Assembly (NCBI RefSeq): GCF_000148645.1
Contig: NC_014541.1
Location: 620,001-684,000, forward strand
Source of the DNA: Ferrimonas balearica DSM 9799
GTDB lineage: Bacteria > Pseudomonadota > Gammaproteobacteria > Enterobacterales > Shewanellaceae
Direction of reading: 5' to 3'
Length of the DNA: 64,000 nt
The number at the start of each line of letters is the position of its first letter. Positions within the stretch are counted from its first letter, which is position 1. The notes under the pieces are model-generated. The model saw nothing but the letters and a program-made list of their open reading frames with translations, ran no database searches and had not been told where the DNA came from. The translations under genes were made by a program, and so were the position numbers. This document shows, piece after piece, positions 12,791 to 38,101 of the stretch.

Positions 12791-13687
12791 ATGAAACTGC
12801 CGCCCCTGCGTGCCACCCAGTGTTTTGAAGCCGTCGTGCGCCTGAACAGCTTCTCCAAAGCCGCCGAGGCGCTGCACATCACCCAAAGCGCGGTCAGCCA
12901 TCAGGTGCGTCAGCTGGAAAGCTATCTGGGGGAGAGCCTGTTGGCCCGACAGGGACGACACTGGACATTGACCCCGACCGGCCAGCGTTACTACGACGCG
13001 ATCAGTCCGGCACTGCAGGGGCTGGCTCAGGCCAGTTCGGTGATACGCGAAGGGGCCAGTGGACCGCTGCGACTGGCGCTGTACAGCTCGTTGGCGGTGA
13101 AGTGGCTGATCCCCCGGCTGGCGGATCTGCGCAAGGCCCACCCCGAGATAGAGCTCAGCCTCAATATGACCGCGGACGATCCGGTTTGCAGCGACGAGGT
13201 GGGGGATTGCTTTATCACCATCAGCCCTCCGTCGGTCGGGGTGGTCAGCCATCACCTCTATCAGGAGCGTCTGCTGCCCGCCTGTGGGCCGGGGTTGTGG
13301 CAACAGCTGCGTAATCAGGCGTTGCCGCAGGCCTTGTGGCAGCACCCGCTGTTGTCCGTGGAGTCCAGCTTTCGCCAGCCCGGCGCAGACTGGCTGGCCT
13401 GGTGTCAGCAGTGTGGCTGCCCCGCTCCCGAGCCGGGGCAGTTCCAGCACGTCAGCCATATGCTGCTGGCGGCGGAGGCGGCGCGCTATGACCAGGGCAT
13501 CGCCTTGCTTAACCATTACATGCTCAATGACGAGGGGGCGGCCGGGCTGGTGCGCCTGCCATTGCCGGAGTTGGCCACCGGCGATCACTTCTATTTTGTT
13601 TACAAAGCCTCCCGGGCGCGACAGCCTCATCTGGTGACGTTGGCCCACTGGCTGACTCAGCAAGGTTTCCATACCGAGGCCGGATAA
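12791..13687 (+). CDS. LysR-type regulator (GcvA-like)
   Basis: A 298-residue LysR protein. The N-terminal helix-turn-helix region reads FSKAAEALHITQSAVSHQVR (about residues 20-39), which is GcvA-like. The effector-binding domain follows from about residue 88. It is divergent from the EamA exporter with about 100 bp between, the classical arrangement of a LysR regulator and its target. The effector is unknown. Confidence 0.9.
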   Translation: MKLPPLRATQCFEAVVRLNSFSKAAEALHITQSAVSHQVRQLESYLGESLLARQGRHWTLTPTGQRYYDAISPALQGLAQASSVIREGASGPLRLALYSSLAVKWLIPRLADLRKAHPEIELSLNMTADDPVCSDEVGDCFITISPPSVGVVSHHLYQERLLPACGPGLWQQLRNQALPQALWQHPLLSVESSFRQPGADWLAWCQQCGCPAPEPGQFQHVSHMLLAAEAARYDQGIALLNHYMLNDEGAAGLVRLPLPELATGDHFYFVYKASRARQPHLVTLAHWLTQQGFHTEAG

Positions 13688-30810: not shown

Positions 30811-30962
30811 GCGCCCTCCTGTGGTCGTACCGACCCGATTCGATGATTCAGTGTAGCCCCGGTATAAACAATGCCGATGGCTGATTGGAGTTTGGCTATT
30901 TCCCGTCAGTGGGCTGCCATTGCTATTTTGTAGACCTCTCAAGTTGTTATGAGTTTCCTGCC

Positions 30963-32153
30963 ATGATTGAACCCGGTACGCCTGATTACCGGTCAGCCAG
31001 TCGCGCCCTGGCGCTTGGTTCCCTGCTGGTGTTCGCCAATCTCTATCTGTTTCAGCCGCTGTTGCCGGTACTGGCCGCCCATTTCGGTGTGGCTGCTACC
31101 GCCGCCAACGGCATTCACGCCGCCACTACGCTGGGGCTGGCCATCGGTCTGCTGCCCTGGGCACTGCTGTCAGAACGCTGGGGGCGGCGCCCGGTGTTGC
31201 TGGCCAGCCTGATGCTGGTGGCGCTGGTTGGGCTGGTGCAACTGCTGGCGGACAGCCTGGCGCTGTTGGTGGTGGCGCGATTGCTGATGGGGTTGGCTCT
31301 GTCGGGGTTTGTGGCGGTCGCCGTGGCTTATATGGCGGAGGAGTTCTCCCCCATTGCGCTGGCGCTGGCGGTGGGCAGCTACGTGGCGGCCAATTCGCTG
31401 GGGGGCATTGCCGGACGGATCTACGGCGGCATGGTGGGGGACTGGCTGGGCTGGCAACCGGCGGCGCTGGCACTGGCATTGTTGACCGCACTGGCCACCG
31501 CCTGGGTGTGGCGAACCTTGCCACCGGCCCGGGCCTTTCGGGCCAGTCGGGCACCGCTGCGCAGTGACCTAGGCCGGGCCATCGGCCACCTGGTCAATCC
31601 CCGACTGTGGCTGGCGATGGCCATTGGCGGCCTGAACTTCGCCCTCTTTGTGAACCAGTTTACGGTGATGGGGTTCCGCCTGGTGGCCGCCCCTCATCAT
31701 CTGCCGGTGGCGGTGGCGTCGCTGATCTTCCTCTGTTACCTGAGCGGTACCCTGACATCGCGGCTGAGTGGGGCCTGGAGCCTTCGGTATGGCCCCTTAT
31801 CCGGGATGGCACTGGGCACCCTGATCGCCATGGCCGGTTGCCTGTTGGCCCGCATCGATGCGCTGTGGGCGATGGTGCTGGGGTTATTGCTGATCAGTGC
31901 CGGGGCGTTTCTGGTGCACGCGCTGGCGTACACCTGGGTCAGCCAGCATGCCGAGCAGGCCAAGGCCAGCGCCACGGCGCTTTATCTGGTGCACTACTAC
32001 CTCGGTGCCAGCTTAGGGGGCTTCTGGTTGTTGTACTGCTATGAACAGGGCCAGTGGGATGGCGTGGTGGCGGGCAGCGGCATACTTTACACCCTGATGC
32101 TGATGGCGCTGGCGGGATTGCAGCGGCGCCAGCGGATGACCGTGCCAGTCTGA
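30963..32153 (+). CDS. MFS transporter, YnfM-like
   Basis: A 396-residue permease with 12 hydrophobic helices. It has the MFS loop motif LLSERWGRRPVLLAS between helices 2 and 3. The family resemblance is to YnfM-type drug or metabolite exporters; the substrate is unknown. The start ATG follows TTTCCTGCC without a strong site. It is convergent with metK, and the shared terminator after its stop is now the left edge of the metK island. Confidence 0.88.
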   Translation: MIEPGTPDYRSASRALALGSLLVFANLYLFQPLLPVLAAHFGVAATAANGIHAATTLGLAIGLLPWALLSERWGRRPVLLASLMLVALVGLVQLLADSLALLVVARLLMGLALSGFVAVAVAYMAEEFSPIALALAVGSYVAANSLGGIAGRIYGGMVGDWLGWQPAALALALLTALATAWVWRTLPPARAFRASRAPLRSDLGRAIGHLVNPRLWLAMAIGGLNFALFVNQFTVMGFRLVAAPHHLPVAVASLIFLCYLSGTLTSRLSGAWSLRYGPLSGMALGTLIAMAGCLLARIDALWAMVLGLLLISAGAFLVHALAYTWVSQHAEQAKASATALYLVHYYLGASLGGFWLLYCYEQGQWDGVVAGSGILYTLMLMALAGLQRRQRMTVPV

Positions 32154-32176: not shown

Positions 32177-32208
32177 AAAAAAGCCCCGCATTGCGGGGCT
32201 TTTTTTGT
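32177..32208. terminator. Bidirectional terminator in the left repeat
   Basis: GCCCCGC/GCGGGGC stem with A and T runs on the two sides. It now ends the MFS transcript; originally it was shared with metK. Confidence 0.9.
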
Positions 32209-32222
32209 CGGCGAGGCGGGTC

Positions 32223-32310
32223 TTACAGACCGGCGTCGGCGCGCAGGGCTTCAGCTTTATCGGTTTGTTCCCACGGGAACTCAACACGGCCGAAGTGACC
32301 GTAGGAGGCG
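32223..32310 (-). pseudogene. Displaced 3' fragment of metK
   Basis: Eighty-eight bases that encode the same last 28 residues and stop as the real metK (36950-37037). There is no start or ribosome site. It is the remnant left at the far side of the island. Confidence 0.95.
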
Positions 32311-32313
32311 CAG

Positions 32314-32345
32314 AATTAATGATTTATCAATATTAATCATTAATT
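32314..32345. repeat. Inverted repeat at the left island junction
   Basis: Arms AATTAATGATT (32314-32324) and AATCATTAATT (32335-32345) are exact inverted copies of 11 bases, separated by ten bases. It begins three bases after the end of the direct repeat. It could be a recombinase site or an operator for the HlyD-type gene. No copy is seen at the right end. Confidence 0.7.
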
Positions 32346-32440
32346 AGCATAGCCTAGATTCTACTTATTGAGTTTAATTTAAATTCGTGAATACTCTGTG
32401 AACGGTTGCCGTCATACGGTCACTCATGGAGGAATATGCT

Positions 32441-33688
32441 TTGACTTTGTTTAGAGAGGATGTGTCAAAAGCTCAAAGCGCTAATAGCTTGTATGGGGTA
32501 ATTGTATTGACACAACCCTTTTCCATCTATTTTGTTATTATCGTCATTTTTCTGTTTCTATCATTGTGTCTGTCTTTTTTGTCATTTTCCGAATACGCTA
32601 GAAAAGAGCGTGTTAAAGGATTTTTAGTGCCTGATTCGGGAATAATAAAGGTCTATCCGGGTCGTTCTGGAAATATTGATAAAATTTATGTGAGCGACGG
32701 ACAAAGCGTCCAAAAGGGGGACTTGATTGCCAAAGTCAGTCTGTCGAGAGTGCAATTAAATGGCATTGATTTAAGTGTATCTTTGATCTCAAGTCTTGAG
32801 TCTCAAATAAGTTCGCTCGAGCAAGATTATAAATCCACATTATTAATGTCCGACCTGGATTTAATTGAGCTTAATCAAAGATTGAATGATTATACAGAAT
32901 CTGTAAAGGTACTAGAGCGTCAACAGAGATTACTTAAAGAAAAACAGCATTTGCAGAACGTTGAATATGAACGATTTTCGAAAATCTATCATGATGGATA
33001 TTTATCAGAAGCGGAATACCATCTTCAAGAACAAAAGTTATTGCAGATTGCTCAAGAGATTGAATCAAACTACGCCAATATCGTTAGTATTAATTCTCAG
33101 CTTAATGAAACTCGTGCTGAGGTTTCCAGGCATCCGCATAAAACTGGGTTAATGTTGGCGGAAATTGAAAGAAGAAAGGCCGATGTTAAGCGACAATTGG
33201 ATGAAATCCACAATGGATATCAGTTTCGTGTTGTGGCTAATGAATCCGGAGTTGTAACGTCAATATCGGTAAAGGAAGGTGAATTTATGTCAGCGGAAAG
33301 GCCGATTTTAAGCATCATCCCTGATGGGGGTGAATTGATTGCTGAATTATTACTTCCCACGCGTTCGGCAGGATTCGTTAAATTACATGATGAAGTACGA
33401 TTGAGGTTTGAGGCATTTCCTTATCAACGGTTCGGGCACATAAGTTCTGAGGTTTCAAGAGTTGATAAATCTCTTATTGTTCAAGGAGAGGTTGATATAC
33501 CTGTACATCTCAGCGAGCCAGTATATCGTGTGCAGGCCAAACTATCTAGGCAAGTTATTAATGCATACGGTGAAGAGTTTTCACTCAAACCAGGCATGTT
33601 GCTGGAAGCAGACATTATTTTGGATAGGCGCTCTTTGCTAGATTGGCTATTGGATCCGATTTATAGCCTAAAGGGGAGGATTGGCTAA
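32441..33688 (+). CDS. HlyD-family periplasmic adaptor for bacteriocin export (CvaA-like)
   Basis: About 415 residues. A short cytoplasmic tail (LFREDVSKAQSANSLYGVI) leads to a membrane helix at about residues 25-47, a lipoyl/beta-barrel start (GFLVPDSGIIKVYPG), a long coiled coil from about 110 to 255, and the returning barrel (GVVTSISVKEGEFM). This is the CvaA/HlyD plan, bridging the ABC exporter and an outer-membrane TolC. An ATG lies at 32426, but GGAGG overlaps it and sits eight bases before TTG at 32441, so TTG is preferred. Very AT-rich. It is the first gene of the island. Confidence 0.88.
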   Translation: MTLFREDVSKAQSANSLYGVIVLTQPFSIYFVIIVIFLFLSLCLSFLSFSEYARKERVKGFLVPDSGIIKVYPGRSGNIDKIYVSDGQSVQKGDLIAKVSLSRVQLNGIDLSVSLISSLESQISSLEQDYKSTLLMSDLDLIELNQRLNDYTESVKVLERQQRLLKEKQHLQNVEYERFSKIYHDGYLSEAEYHLQEQKLLQIAQEIESNYANIVSINSQLNETRAEVSRHPHKTGLMLAEIERRKADVKRQLDEIHNGYQFRVVANESGVVTSISVKEGEFMSAERPILSIIPDGGELIAELLLPTRSAGFVKLHDEVRLRFEAFPYQRFGHISSEVSRVDKSLIVQGEVDIPVHLSEPVYRVQAKLSRQVINAYGEEFSLKPGMLLEADIILDRRSLLDWLLDPIYSLKGRIG

Positions 33689-33725
33689 TTAAATATCCCA
33701 AAATAAATCCATTCACACAAATTTT

Positions 33726-33733
33726 AAAGGAGG
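33726..33733 (+). promoter_or_regulatory. Perfect ribosome-binding site without a start codon
   Basis: AAAGGAGG is followed by TTTTTACGATAG with no ATG, GTG or TTG at a normal distance. The 108-bp gap between the adaptor gene and the first peptide gene may have lost a small open frame here, or ATA at 33742 may be a degraded start. Confidence 0.45.
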
Positions 33734-33796
33734 TTTTTACGATAGTTAAATTTATTTAAATTGTATTATTTAATTTTTTATATGAGGTGATTTATT

Positions 33797-33943
33797 ATGC
33801 AGGAGTTGACATGTGATGAATTAGATCTGGTTAACGGCGGTATGCCAGTAGCTATAGCTTGGGCGGTCCTTGAAGGGGCTGCGGGATTAGCCGGACTATT
33901 TAGTGGAGGCTGGGCTCTTGGGCATTATCTATATAGTGAATAA
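33797..33943 (+). CDS. Double-glycine peptide 1 (microcin-like precursor, 48 residues)
   Basis: Leader MQELTCDELDLVNGG is 15 residues and resembles the microcin V leader (L-T-x-x-E-L-D-x-V-x-G-G). Cleavage after GG would leave a core of 33 residues, MPVAIAWAVLEGAAGLAGLF then SGGWALGHYLYSE, hydrophobic and rich in Gly and Ala with G-x-x-x-G-like spacing. No Cys in the core. A TGAGGTG site lies seven bases upstream. Such peptides are exported and trimmed by a C39 ABC transporter, encoded 725 bases downstream. The target is unknown; it may be a membrane-active bacteriocin subunit. Confidence 0.85.
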   Translation: MQELTCDELDLVNGGMPVAIAWAVLEGAAGLAGLFSGGWALGHYLYSE

Positions 33944-33957
33944 TACAGGTGAACATC

Positions 33958-34092
33958 ATGAAAGAGCTAAGTGTTAGTGAGTTAAATATTGTTGTTGGTG
34001 GACACCCAATTGCAATTGCTGCAATGTGGTTAGGGAGAGCGGGCGCAGTAGGAAGCCTGGGGGCACTCGCTTACTATTTTTATGAACGTTAA
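33958..34092 (+). CDS. Double-glycine peptide 2 (microcin-like precursor, 44 residues)
   Basis: Leader MKELSVSELNIVVGG, then a core of 29 residues: HPIAIAAMWLGRAGAVGSLG followed by ALAYYFYER. It shares with peptide 1 the P-(I/V)-A-I-A start and a Gly-rich helix that ends in aromatic residues and a charged tail, so the two are probably paralogues. It starts 15 bp after peptide 1. Cys-free. Confidence 0.85.
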   Translation: MKELSVSELNIVVGGHPIAIAAMWLGRAGAVGSLGALAYYFYER

Positions 34093-34106
34093 TTTAAGGT
34101 GTTGAT

Positions 34107-34253
34107 ATGAAGAATTTAACATTTGAAGAAACACAAGAAGTAGCAGGTGGGATGGTATTTTTTGTATATTTTGCCGCTGGATATTTAGGGGCGTTTTCGC
34201 TATCTGCTGGTTTTGCTTATGGCGCCGTAGATGCCATGTCTGAAAATAGATGA
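34107..34253 (+). CDS. Double-glycine peptide 3 (microcin-like precursor, 48 residues)
   Basis: Leader MKNLTFEETQEVAGG and a core of 33 residues starting MVFFVYFAAGYLGAFSLSAG and ending YGAVDAMSENR. More divergent than peptides 1 and 2, but with the same plan: a single small-residue-rich hydrophobic helix and polar C-terminus. Its stop TGA overlaps the ATG of the following membrane protein, which suggests that the two are made together. Confidence 0.83.
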   Translation: MKNLTFEETQEVAGGMVFFVYFAAGYLGAFSLSAGFAYGAVDAMSENR

Positions 34254-34555
34254 ATATCTATCAGGGGGGAGACCCACTGAAATTTCCCAAAATTGTTATG
34301 ATTAATAGAATTTTTTTATATCTTGGTCTAGCTCTTCTTTTTATATGGATTTTTTGGGTTAAGGATTATATTAAAGATGATTGGAATTGCATTTTTTCTT
34401 TGCCACTTGACAAGATAAGCGTTTTGATAATTGCCATTCCGGTTTTGGCTCTTTCTAACATATTTAGAGGGGTCGTGTCGGGAAATAGTAAATTTGATAG
34501 GTCCTCGGTTTTTGTGTCTTTATTGGTCGCGATTTATATTTTTGCCTTTCAGTAG
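34250..34555 (+). CDS. Small membrane protein, candidate immunity protein (101 residues)
   Basis: Three hydrophobic helices at about residues 19-37, 55-71 and 86-100, with a charged loop DYIKDDWN between the first two. No known family. The start overlaps the stop of peptide 3 (ATGA). Position inside a bacteriocin operon and small multi-helix form are usual for self-immunity proteins. That role is inference; it could also be an export accessory. Confidence 0.75.
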   Translation: MNIYQGGDPLKFPKIVMINRIFLYLGLALLFIWIFWVKDYIKDDWNCIFSLPLDKISVLIIAIPVLALSNIFRGVVSGNSKFDRSSVFVSLLVAIYIFAFQ

Positions 34556-34667
34556 GGCTGATGATTTTATTATTAGGCAACGATAATTATTTCATGATCT
34601 ATTTAATGTAATCCCTATCTACATTTTTAATTTTGATGGTAAATGGTTCTAATGAGAGAAATTTAAT

Positions 34668-36863
34668 TTGATAGTAGAAAGTGAACCCTCAAATAACGCA
34701 CCTTCATCTGATGATGATGAAAATAGCCTAGAGCTTCTGGAGTTTTCTAGCGCGCGTCGAGTTCCGCTTGTCATGCAAACTGAAGTCGCGGAGTGTGGCC
34801 TGGCCTGTCTGGCGATGGTGGCGAGCTTTCATGGTTCTAAGCAAGATTTGCCTTCACTAAGGCAGCGGTTTAATACTAATCTCGTCGGTATGAACCTGCA
34901 GCAAATGATCGCTTTGGCTGATGGTTTAGGTCTTGCTAGTCGTGCACTTAAGTGTCCATTGGCAGAGGTTGGAAAACTGGCGATTCCTTGTGTGCTGCAT
35001 TGGGATATGAATCATTTTGTTGTGTTGACGGGGGTGTCCAGAACCGACATAAAGATTAACGACCCGGCGCTGGGAAAACGCCAGATGAGTCTGGCTGAGT
35101 TTAGTGAGCATTATACTGGTATTGCGCTGGAGTTAACGCCAGCGAGTAACTTCAAAAAGCAGGACCAGCGGGTGCGAATGAAATTATCGCAACTGTGGAG
35201 CAAAATCGTTGGCCTCAAGTCCGGCTTAGTCTCATTACTGCTACTTTCGATCGTACTGCAAGTTTTTGCTCTTGCTAGTCCTTACTACATGCAGTGGGTG
35301 GTGGACGAGGTGCTACTCAGCAATGATCAGCCCCTTCTCACCGTGCTTGCTATCGGCTTTAGTTTACTAGTGTTGTTCACTGTAATCTCTACTGGAGTTC
35401 GTAGCTATCTTATATTACGCCTATCTAGCATGATGAATATGCAGATGGGGGTTAACCTGTTAAGGCATCTTCTTAAGTTGCCTATGGCTTACTTCGAGAA
35501 GCGACATATAGGGGATCTAGTCTCACGTTTTGGCTCGCTGGCGCAAATTCGAGAGCGTTTGACAACGGGGCTCATTGAAACGGTTGTCGATGGGTTAATG
35601 TCGATGACCGTATTGATAATGATGTTGCTATACTCGCCTAAACTGGCTGCAGTGGTGGTAGCGGCTGTCGTTCTTTATACTTTGCTTCGGCTTGCTTTAT
35701 ACCAACCTCTCAGGCGCCAAACTGAAGAGTATATTCAAGCACAAGCCAAGGAGCAAAGTAACTTTCTCGAGAACATCCGTGGTATTCAAACAATTAAACT
35801 ATTCACCTGTGAATCGATGCGTCAGAGTCTATGGCAGAATCGATATGCCGAAGTCGTTAATAGCGAAATTCGTCTCGGAAAGTTGAAAATTAGCTTTGAT
35901 GTAATAAATAAGTTTCTCTTTGGCATTGAGAATGTAGTGGTTGTATATTTGTCCGCAACTTTGGTAATGGAAGGCCTGTTAACCGTTGGGATGATTTTTG
36001 CCTTTATCGCGTACAAAAATCAGTTTACTGATCGAATGGCGAGCTTCGTTGAGCAACTGATTCAATTTCGAATGCTAAGGTTACACCTTGAGCGGATATC
36101 AGACATTGCTCTGGCCGAAGTTGAGCCTCACCGAGAATCTCGATTATCTCTGGCGGAGGTTCTTGGCAAACTTGAGCTTAAGGGAGTGAGTTTCCGCCAT
36201 GCTGAAAACACACCTTGGATAATCCGGGATTGTAACCTTTGCGTTGAGCCGGGTGAATCCGTAGCTATCGTCGGACCGTCGGGCTGTGGCAAAACAACAC
36301 TGATTAAATTGATGCTGGGACTGCTTGAGCCGTCTGAGGGTAAGGTATTGTTGGATGGTAAGGATATTACTCAGATTGGCCTTACTGAATATCGTCGTCA
36401 AATTTCTGCTGTGATGCAAAACGACACTCTGCTATCTGGCTCGGTATTGGATAATTTGAGCTTTTTTGATCCCGAACCAAACTTGGTTAAAGTGCAGCGC
36501 TGTGCTCAACTTGCTGCCATCGACGCTGATATTAGTCGGATGCCTATGGGCTACAACACTTTAGTCGGCGACATGGGGAATCAGTTTTCAGGAGGACAGG
36601 TACAGCGTTTACTGCTAGCGCGGGCACTGTATCAGGAGCCTAAGGTGCTCTTTATGGATGAGGCAACCAGTCATTTGGATGTGCAGAACGAAATCAGCAT
36701 CGGTGAACATATTAAAGATCTTGCGATGACCCGAATCATCGTTGCACATCGGCCAGAGACCATTAAGCAAGCCGATCGGGTGATGGTGATGGATGCCGGT
36801 AAATTGTTAAGTCTCGAAGCGCTGCAAGCTTTGCATAAAGAGACATCGAACTGCCCACCTTAA
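34668..36863 (+). CDS. Peptidase-containing ABC transporter (C39, CvaB-like)
   Basis: A 731-residue exporter. C39 peptidase at about 33-160 has the nucleophile Cys43 in QTEVAECGLACLAM, His116 in DMNHFVVLTG and Asp132 in NDPALG, all present. Six membrane helices follow (about 180-470), then the ATPase with Walker A GPSGCGKTT (about 535), signature FSGGQVQR and Walker B VLFMDEATSH. It cuts double-glycine leaders and exports the cores. The start is TTG with GAGAG upstream; no better ATG comes before the peptidase core. Its GC is visibly higher than in the adaptor and peptide genes, so the island may be composite. Confidence 0.93.
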   Translation: MIVESEPSNNAPSSDDDENSLELLEFSSARRVPLVMQTEVAECGLACLAMVASFHGSKQDLPSLRQRFNTNLVGMNLQQMIALADGLGLASRALKCPLAEVGKLAIPCVLHWDMNHFVVLTGVSRTDIKINDPALGKRQMSLAEFSEHYTGIALELTPASNFKKQDQRVRMKLSQLWSKIVGLKSGLVSLLLLSIVLQVFALASPYYMQWVVDEVLLSNDQPLLTVLAIGFSLLVLFTVISTGVRSYLILRLSSMMNMQMGVNLLRHLLKLPMAYFEKRHIGDLVSRFGSLAQIRERLTTGLIETVVDGLMSMTVLIMMLLYSPKLAAVVVAAVVLYTLLRLALYQPLRRQTEEYIQAQAKEQSNFLENIRGIQTIKLFTCESMRQSLWQNRYAEVVNSEIRLGKLKISFDVINKFLFGIENVVVVYLSATLVMEGLLTVGMIFAFIAYKNQFTDRMASFVEQLIQFRMLRLHLERISDIALAEVEPHRESRLSLAEVLGKLELKGVSFRHAENTPWIIRDCNLCVEPGESVAIVGPSGCGKTTLIKLMLGLLEPSEGKVLLDGKDITQIGLTEYRRQISAVMQNDTLLSGSVLDNLSFFDPEPNLVKVQRCAQLAAIDADISRMPMGYNTLVGDMGNQFSGGQVQRLLLARALYQEPKVLFMDEATSHLDVQNEISIGEHIKDLAMTRIIVAHRPETIKQADRVMVMDAGKLLSLEALQALHKETSNCPP

Positions 36864-36903
36864 GTTGCGTTAGAGGGCAGGTAGAGAGGCCAGCCCTGAA
36901 TCT

Positions 36904-36936
36904 AAAAAAGCCCCGCATTGCGGGGCTTTTTTTGTC
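36904..36936. terminator. Bidirectional terminator after metK and the island ABC gene
   Basis: GCCCCGC/GCGGGGC stem with A and T runs. It lies between the convergent island ABC gene and metK and may end both transcripts. Confidence 0.9.
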
Positions 36937-37037
36937 GGCGAGGCGGGTCTTACAGACCGGCGTCGGCGCGCAGGGCTTCAGCTTTATCGGTTTGTTCCCA
37001 CGGGAACTCAACGCGGCCGAAGTGACCGTAGGAGGCG
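36904..37037. repeat. Right direct repeat of the metK island (134 bp)
   Basis: Partner of 32177-32310. It covers the metK terminator and the last 28 codons and stop of the intact metK. The match ends at 37037, within the coding region. Confidence 0.97.
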
Positions 37038-38101
37038 GTCGGCTGGTAGATCGGGCGCTCCAGGTGCAGCATCTGGATCAGGCCGTACGGACGCAGGTCA
37101 AAGTGCTTGCGTACCAGCGCGATCAGGGTGTCTTCCGGCAGTTTGCCAGTGCCGAAGGTTTCGATGCTGATGGAGGTCGGCTCAGCCACACCAATGGCGT
37201 AGGAAACCTGGATCTCACAGCGGTCGGCCAGGCCGGCAGCGACGATGTTCTTGGCAACGTAGCGGGTGGCGTAGGCGGCAGAACGGTCCACTTTGGACGG
37301 ATCTTTACCGGAGAACGCACCACCACCGTGACGAGCCATACCGCCGTAGGTGTCTACGATGATCTTACGGCCAGTCAGACCACAGTCACCCATCGGGCCA
37401 CCGATAACGAAACGGCCGGTCGGGTTGATGTGGAACTTGGTGTCTTTGGTGATCCACTCAGCCGGCAGTACCGGCTTGATGATGGTTTCCATCACGCCTT
37501 CACGCAGGTCTTCGGTGGACACGCTGTCGCAGTGCTGGGTGGACAGTACTACGGCGTCGATGCCAGCGATCTTGCCATCTTCGTAGGCGAAAGTGACCTG
37601 AGACTTGGCGTCCGGACGCAGCCACGGCAGGGTGCCGTTCTTGCGCACTTCAGCCTGACGCTTCACCAGACGGTGGGAGTAGGTGATCGGCGCCGGCATC
37701 AGCACGTCGGTTTCGTTGCTGGCGTAGCCGAACATCAGGCCCTGGTCACCAGCACCCTGCTCACGCGGGTCAGCGCGGTCAACGCCCTGGTTGATGTCCG
37801 GGGACTGTTTGCCGATGGCAGACAGAACGGCGCAGGAGTTGGCATCAAAGCCCATGTCGGAGTGGGTGTAACCAATCTCGCGAACGGTTTGACGGGTGAT
37901 CTCTTCGATATCGACCCAGGCGGAGGTGGTGATCTCACCGCCGACCATGACCATGCCGGTCTTTACGTAGGTTTCACAGGCCACGCGGGCTTTCGGGTCT
38001 TGAGCCAGGATGGCGTCGAGCACCGCGTCGGAGATCTGATCCGCAATTTTATCGGGATGACCTTCGGACACCGACTCGGAGGTGAACAGGTGACGTGCCA
38101 T
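36950..38101 (-). CDS. metK: S-adenosylmethionine synthetase
   Basis: A 383-residue enzyme with the N-terminal [32 protein letters not shown] and the C-terminal [19 protein letters not shown] region. It makes SAM from methionine and ATP. Length and all motifs are intact in spite of the island at its 3' end. The last 28 codons belong to the direct repeat and may have come with the element. Upstream lies a tandem of MetJ-box-like octamers. Confidence 0.97.

Follow-up and report, generated by a model that had tools for sequence, protein, structure and literature searches.

Two-peptide bacteriocins of class IIb combine a GG leader, hydrophobic glycine-rich cores of ~30 residues, adjacent genes and one small membrane protein. 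The microcin H47 island, at 13 kb, has imperfect repeats and specifies another kind of microcin. Class II microcins number 10 verified members with precursors of 75-120 aa, according to one account (PMC9746304). In Caulobacter, the Cdz system (CdzABCDI) is described as comprising a type I exporter, small glycine-zipper peptides and an immunity protein predicted to be 3-TM; as that report presents it, the Cdz-like search set spanned 60-151 residues and 5% of the loci were predicted to have three potential toxins (PMC5380434).

Here, we describe a 4.6-kb islet that adjoins metK in the marine bacterium Ferrimonas balearica DSM 9799, within a stretch of 64,000 nucleotides (positions 620,001 to 684,000 of contig NC_014541.1) that was analysed as a whole and is termed the window. 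We consider it probable that this islet was acquired, that it is of the microcin H47 island type, and that its product is a membrane-acting bacteriocin of three components, accompanied by a single immunity protein. Its components and flanks, in window coordinates, are as follows.

30885-32153, + strand: native gene bordering the insertion site on the left, presumably of the MFS transporter family by assignment from its sequence; adjoins metK in congeners G003, G004 and G006.
32177-32310: left copy of the 134-nt repeat, a terminator and truncated metK 3' end, with native DNA on its left.
32426-33688, + strand: HlyD-type periplasmic adaptor, 420 aa (Pfam HlyD_3, 5.4e-12).
33797-33943, + strand: GG peptide 1, MQELTCDELDLVNGG, 48 aa, with a 33-aa core holding GxxxG twice.
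33958-34092, + strand: GG peptide 2, MKELSVSELNIVVGG, 44 aa counted from the ATG, with a 29-aa core free of GxxxG.
34107-34253, + strand: GG peptide 3, MKNLTFEETQEVAGG, 48 aa, with a 33-aa core holding GxxxG once.
34250-34555, + strand: small membrane protein, 101 aa, candidate immunity protein with three hydrophobic segments by hydropathy.
34668-36863, + strand: C39-peptidase ABC exporter, 731 aa (Pfam Peptidase_C39, 1.2e-33).
36904-37037: right-hand copy of the repeat (134 nt), running on into the intact metK gene.
36950-38101, - strand: intact metK, the insertion target, 383 aa, the protein being 94-99% identical in 13 congeners.

The ORFs and Pfam matches bear out the full gene content given in the initial annotation (adaptor, three GG peptides, membrane protein and C39 exporter, all on the plus strand), as well as its description of the region as AT-rich, GC being 0.417 within the islet vs 0.614 in the remainder of the window. 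The start of the membrane ORF overlaps the stop codon of peptide 3. ECGLACL, HWDMNHFV and INDPA in the exporter are what we take to be the C39 Cys, His and Asp motifs, and further Pfam matches are to ABC_membrane (2e-40) and ABC_tran (2.2e-33); relatives with solved structures are HlyB, an 'ABC-type bacteriocin transporter' and ComA. The adaptor matches TIGR01843 at 7.4e-41, under the cut-off of that model. Together, the adaptor and exporter families support the CvaA/CvaB-like route (HlyD plus C39 ABC) that had been suggested, and TolC is encoded in the same genome (TIGR01844 match over cut-off). A pattern scan for promoters and terminators gave no excess over shuffles.

The span first noted, 32177-37037, coincides exactly with the outer limits of a direct repeat of 134 nt with one mismatch (99% identical), which consists of the final 88 nt of metK and the metK terminator and which, two tRNA clusters aside, is the sole direct repeat of at least 50 nt in the window. 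Within the right copy, a hairpin at 36904-36933 begins 40 nt past the exporter stop; because A and T runs flank it on either side, it could end transcription from both sides as a putative two-way terminator, and it was not among the matches of the pattern scan for terminators. The text of the initial annotation is silent on the metK-derived flanking repeat. The site is empty in three congeners (G003, G004 and G006), where the MFS gene lies directly beside metK in a neighbourhood comparison that took in matches of >35% identity, and in G003, the sole congener compared by DNA, both flanks are contiguous. Like genomic islands, the islet thus has direct repeats derived from the 3' end of a gene and an empty site in relatives, whereas the integrase that such islands carry was not found between the repeats in the ORF list or by Pfam, the sizeable ORFs there being the adaptor, peptides, membrane protein and exporter.

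The islet would accordingly be viewed as occupying a duplicated metK 3' end and, since repeats are present without an integrase, its entry, and possible exit, may have relied on recombination through host or foreign functions. We see an even chance that the repeat reflects no mobile element and records an ordinary one-off, homology-assisted insertion. The missing integrase fits such an event, as does the rarity of second metK C-terminal pieces, which occur in 2 of the 152 family genomes (G000 and G002; 150 of the 152 have any metK match), and homology-assisted illegitimate recombination has described precedent (PMC2884548). Against a single event, congener G002 carries, at the same place, a further metK 3' end with its terminator in tandem, and the microcin H47 island, with long direct repeats and likewise no integrase, is reported to excise (PMC3191183). 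With second pieces in only those two genomes, a family-wide hotspot at the metK 3' end was rejected; in a limited literature search for metK as an insertion site, metK was not mentioned among the matches listed.

The peptide genes are real, and their cores are under purifying selection. In Shewanella chilikensis (locus L030), the three peptides and the membrane ORF keep their order beside a 70%-identical exporter, with the block placed after the ABC gene rather than between HlyD and ABC as in Ferrimonas. Peptide 1 shares 69% identity with L030:3982-4146 (pS 0.81, pN 0.20), peptide 2 shares 61% with L030:4158-4301 in an alignment that begins at 33967, nine bases past the ATG (pS 0.82, pN 0.25), and peptide 3 shares 67% with L030:4315-4461 (pS 0.71, pN 0.19). 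Across the cores, pS is 0.77 and pN 0.16, compared with a pN of 0.30 in the leaders; the membrane ORF is weakly conserved (30% identity across 80 aa with L030:4439-4756). All three frames are therefore conserved beside a homologous exporter, contrary to the first of the outcomes that the initial annotation named as refuting, and their retention as a block with the membrane ORF strengthens the earlier proposal of a multi-component peptide system: that three peptides and a candidate protector gene stayed together in a distant relative suggests teamwork. Close relatives of the set occur in this one other species among the 394 order and 152 family genomes searched, leader-type partial matches in G033, G034, G050 and G000 (peptide 2) being left out, and peptide 3 has matches in 2 of the 152 family genomes, its own and that of S. 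chilikensis. A search for peptide 1 on plasmids gave no match, nor did six search patterns for the exporter match any stretch of viral contigs.

GG peptides were also counted at 80 closest-exporter loci, 79 of which were the best of 513 candidates, so that the census speaks for the closest exporters only; it includes both L054 and L055. Strict GG-leader ORFs numbered 96 on the exporter strand and 2 on the opposite strand, and Markov resamples averaged 0.2; of the 80 loci, 28 had one, 24 two or more and 28 none. This count is too low, because the strict pattern finds the window's first two peptides and misses both the third, which is instead supported by its conservation at L030, and the peptides of L040. 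The position tally leaves out 32 of the 80 loci, those without a detected HlyD or strict GG ORF. Cores of <=35 aa were present in 40 of the 96 strict peptides; the claim that ~30-residue cores are new in themselves was therefore too strong, and shortness was dropped as a mark of novelty. GxxxG occurred 20 times in 25 short hydrophobic cores, not all of them independent, vs 10.5 in shuffles, and 0 of 1000 shuffles reached the observed 20.

Thalassotalea marina (L040) and Veronia nyctiphanis (L054 and L055) display the same two layouts, with three peptides of their own and a small hydrophobic ORF, the membrane ORFs of L040 and L055 being chosen by place and hydropathy rather than homology. L054 and L055, identical at 13,330/13,330 nt, occupy the opposite ends of a single contig and hence were taken as one locus. 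The leader of the third L040 peptide ends in Ala-Gly, not Gly-Gly. Among 325 pairs from 26 hand-picked cores, the best cross-triple comparisons, Fer1-Ver2 (z 4.1) and Fer3-Ver1 (z 3.5), are weak and uncorrected for the number of pairs; homology of the Ferrimonas/Shewanella triple to that of Thalassotalea/Veronia is thus unsupported, and we claim like layout, not common descent. Searches with the Veronia and Thalassotalea peptide 1 reached 6 of 394 genomes at a marginal 22-24 bits, three of these inside a 318-aa frame, and none was accepted as a relative. As a tentative generalization, such loci might form a conserved three-component class of Gram-negative bacteriocins, in which three distinct ~30-residue GG peptides, their genes in fixed order with that of one membrane immunity protein, would be jointly required to breach the target membrane. 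Marine gammaproteobacteria would then exchange the set as a single toxin block, which could take either of two places relative to an exporter of common type.

Mechanistically, the HlyD adaptor, the C39 ABC exporter and the TolC encoded elsewhere would provide a type I export route, in which the C39 domain would cleave each of the three precursors behind its Gly-Gly and so release three cores, hydrophobic, rich in glycine and 29-33 residues long. The cores would most likely act jointly within the membrane of a related competitor, where helix-helix packing through GxxxG-like motifs could render the membrane leaky, as in class IIb two-peptide bacteriocins, and the single three-segment membrane protein, the candidate immunity protein, would protect the producer. 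Many related loci have a single GG peptide or a number of dissimilar ones, in line with three separate one-peptide bacteriocins on a shared exporter, which need no joint action and against one or all of which the membrane protein would guard; we nevertheless judge this unlikely, in that S. chilikensis keeps the order of triple and membrane gene despite the changed position relative to the exporter, and a single candidate immunity gene serves three peptides. Quite improbable, in our view, is a Cdz-like contact-dependent system whose cores aggregate on the producer surface and kill on contact: the gene kinds are the same and the report on Cdz predicts some three-toxin loci, but the islet's precursors of 44-48 aa lie outside the length range of its glycine-zipper search set (PMC5380434), and the islet peptides have a class II GG leader and short zippers. 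That the peptides are pheromones is very improbable, for although they are short and related C39 exporters such as ComA, the competence factor transporter, carry such signals, no sensor- or regulator-like ORF lies among the ORFs between the repeats, the cores are strongly hydrophobic, glycine-rich and GxxxG-enriched, and three peptides at once share a block with a membrane protein.

If the three peptides of the proposed three-component bacteriocin do cooperate, a multi-peptide mode familiar chiefly from Gram-positives also works against Gram-negative targets. The cores are short enough for synthesis, which makes the idea of joint action directly testable. Homology screens built on the few, long verified class II microcins could miss such peptides.

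Among known systems, the nearest kin appear to be the class IIb GxxxG bacteriocins, which the islet resembles in general build. On TIGR03949 (lactobin A/cerein 7B), a model that covers leader as well as core, the window's own peptides stay below the cut-off of 21.5 bits (12.1 for peptide 1, 14.9 for peptide 2, no match for peptide 3); the S. chilikensis counterparts of peptides 1 and 2 exceed it (28.7 and 30.5 bits; peptide 3 has no match), as do all three Veronia peptides, and those of Thalassotalea remain under it (best 19.7 bits). PF10439 (Bacteriocin_IIc) gives peptide 1 15.7 bits vs a gathering threshold of 27.1, and no match for peptides 2 and 3. Unlike class IIb systems, the islet resides in a Gram-negative host, employs HlyD and TolC, and has three peptides, not two. 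With class II microcins (microcin V and its relatives) it shares the HlyD-type adaptor, C39 ABC exporter and GG leader by which that class is recognized, and, in the candidate membrane protein, a small immunity protein; its precursors, however, are three together and shorter than those of the verified members as listed (PMC9746304). Microcin V as nearest match was rejected, one Veronia peptide alone touching Pfam MccV (18.3 vs a cut-off of 27). Because short cores occur often beside exporters of this type and relatives pass TIGR03949, the analogy is nearer to multi-peptide class IIb or Cdz-type glycine-zipper systems. The likeness to Cdz is by description, not sequence, and CdzC and CdzD, at 86 and 84 aa, are reported as larger and cell-associated. 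On a megaplasmid, Shewanella oneidensis MR-1 has HlyD, a C39 exporter of 70% identity and, behind these, two genes annotated as 'bacteriocin-like peptide'; that locus differs in being plasmid-borne and in its two longer peptides (genes of 210 and 204 nt). Finally, the microcin H47 island of E. coli is described, like the islet, as having bacteriocin genes, extensive direct repeats and no integrase (PMC3191183). The Ferrimonas islet, which may be mobile, differs in its smaller size and in a repeat drawn from the metK 3' end, and offers a small, clean integrase-less bacteriocin island in which repeat and empty site are both defined.

In Ferrimonas balearica, the three GG-leader peptides encoded between an adaptor gene and an exporter gene form a real and conserved block, which lies on a small acquired islet and is probably antibacterial. 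F. balearica PAT-T is described as a BSL-1 marine sediment bacterium (PMC3035368), and the genome is a single contig of 4,279,159 bases from which positions 620001-684000 form the window. The islet comprises the following genes.

32426-33688, plus strand: HlyD adaptor
33797-33943, plus strand: GG peptide 1
33958-34092, plus strand: GG peptide 2
34107-34253, plus strand: GG peptide 3
34250-34555, plus strand: membrane ORF with three hydrophobic segments by hydropathy
34668-36863, plus strand: C39 ABC exporter, which aligns with solved chains of HlyB, a bacteriocin transporter and ComA

The initial annotation had read this same set of plus-strand genes in an AT-rich islet of a GC-rich genome, and both readings are borne out: all of the genes are present, and GC is 0.417 in the islet vs 0.614 in the remaining window. 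Elsewhere in the genome, at 3719987-3721207, lies a TolC scoring above the cut-off of model TIGR01844.

The islet is delimited by two copies of a 134-nt direct repeat, differing by one mismatch and composed of the final 88 nt of metK plus the metK terminator; the initial annotation had placed the islet at the outer edges of these repeats (32177-37037), with no mention of the repeat in its text. Short terminator-like matches aside, no third copy was found in the genome. Among 13 congeners, 12 of which carry DNA downstream of metK (the contig of the other, G007, ends ~215 nt past the gene), the window's MFS gene directly adjoins metK in three (G003, G004 and G006), and in nine the neighbour of metK is instead the gene found in the window on the far side of the MFS gene. 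Neither the islet HlyD nor its exporter was found beside metK in any of the 12 (matches >35% identity), and in G003 one continuous stretch reaches into both window flanks, overlapping on the 134-nt repeat. The continuous G003 site and the islet-free congeners together argue that the islet entered with duplication of the metK end and at no visible cost in native DNA. Of 152 family genomes, 2 have a second metK C-terminal piece: this one and the congener G002, whose metK region (L140, 2560-2960) carries the metK 3' end and terminator again in tandem, with a ~20-nt spacer and no cargo. The repeated unit stops just beyond the terminator in both species, and the G002 copy is either an insertion remnant or a plain duplication.

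Direct repeats of at least 30 nt also span the exporter in 10 of 79 other exporter loci, overlapping GG peptide genes in at least four (L045, L047, L057 and L068). Two loci show repeats flanking the exporter, of 1012 nt at 92% identity (L071, 2048-3058 and 10535-11543) and of 103 nt at 100% identity (L060, 4476-4578 and 10245-10347). A precedent for a bacteriocin islet without an integrase between long direct repeats is the microcin H47 island (PMC3191183); a later study found that its excision involved none of the functions tested, among them RecA-pathway proteins and the 16 site-specific recombinases of K-12 (PMC5426353).

The peptide frames are kept beside a homologous exporter, as the initial annotation had proposed to check. 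In Shewanella chilikensis (locus L030, whose contig and that in family genome G076 appear to be one and the same), an exporter 70% identical to the window's is followed by relatives of all three peptides in unchanged order (69, 61 and 67% identity for peptides 1, 2 and 3), and a membrane ORF there overlaps the third peptide gene. Between the two species silent sites are close to saturation and replacement sites are constrained (pS 0.77 and pN 0.16 for the cores, pS 0.82 and pN 0.30 for the leaders). This combination of high pS with low pN, lowest in the cores, indicates that the frames are real genes and the cores the part most guarded by selection. Full-length relatives were not found outside these two species among 394 order genomes for peptide 1, 152 family genomes for peptide 3, and the best 79 of 513 exporter loci.

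Thalassotalea marina (L040) and Veronia nyctiphanis (L055) likewise have blocks of three peptides, with cores of 27-36 aa and a small hydrophobic ORF behind them; the block lies between HlyD and exporter in the former and after the exporter in the latter. The third Thalassotalea leader ends in Ala-Gly, and the first peptides of the two blocks are related (57% identity); sequence kinship of either with the Ferrimonas set is weak and unproven. The Veronia contig has 13,330 identical nt at both ends (L054/L055) and may represent a circle whose ends overlap, such that the block may be plasmid-borne. Other repeated peptides include three adjacent, mutually related GG peptides with paired cysteines in Microbulbifer sediminum (L039, 10308-10783), every core of which starts [FI]VCGGLCV, and four tandem near-identical GG-type peptides of 36-37 aa (MKELNAIQMNAINGAGG...) downstream of the exporter in Pseudoalteromonas (L078, 11152-11664; L079, 11157-11670).

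Across 80 loci (the window and the best 79 of 513 exporter loci, the Veronia contig counting twice), a strict GG-leader pattern, which skips the window's peptide 3, picked up 96 ORFs sharing the exporter's strand, against 2 on the opposite strand and 0.2 in Markov resamples; 40 of the 96 have cores of ≤35 aa. Per locus there were none in 28, one in 28, two in 13 and three or more in 11. In the 48 loci with both HlyD and GG ORFs detected, the peptides lie in the HlyD-exporter gap (19), after the exporter (22), in both places (5) or before HlyD (2, one also in the gap). Neighbouring GG genes in five loci share near-identical leader DNA (87-98%; L045 4849/5841 and 6518/12914, L047 2124/2707/6498, L050 3611/6333/6657, L064 5717/6650, L068 12679/14340), in some pairs with the upstream 120 nt also alike (85-99%), and from the GG codons onward no relation is left between their cores (22-38% ungapped DNA identity). 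Leaders are ≥85% alike in 14 of 80 within-locus pairs, with differing cores in 11 of the 14, a pattern that reads as a cassette-like swapping of cores while the leader stays the same.

Because the peptide block is fixed and accompanied by a single membrane gene, we infer joint action of the three peptides; the islet would encode a three-component membrane-acting bacteriocin and one immunity protein. GxxxG, which PMC5380434 names as a motif of class IIb and Cdz peptides, is enriched in 25 short hydrophobic cores near exporters (20 vs 10.5, sd 2.7; 0 of 1000 shuffles) and occurs in window peptides 1 and 3, not in peptide 2. In profile scoring with the class IIb bacteriocin model TIGR03949, all three Veronia peptides and peptides 1 and 2 of S. 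chilikensis score above the cut-off; the window peptides, S. chilikensis peptide 3 and the three Thalassotalea peptides do not reach it. By hydropathy, the membrane ORFs of S. chilikensis and Veronia, like that of the window, show three hydrophobic segments, and that of Thalassotalea two.

Such peptide-exporter loci have been flagged before: on the Shewanella oneidensis MR-1 megaplasmid, an exporter with 70% identity is accompanied by two genes annotated as 'bacteriocin-like peptide', and according to a paper on Shewanella annotation, peptides of this sort often go unnoticed when they lie near C39 exporters (PMC3223724). For verified class II microcins, a precursor length of 75-120 aa is given (PMC9746304). 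Among the matches listed, by title and abstract opening, for a part of the open literature, no three-peptide GG system of Gram-negatives was found; PMC5380434 does mention Cdz-like loci predicted to have three toxins. The same source gives three predicted segments for the Caulobacter protein CdzI, in which the membrane ORF of the window resembles it.
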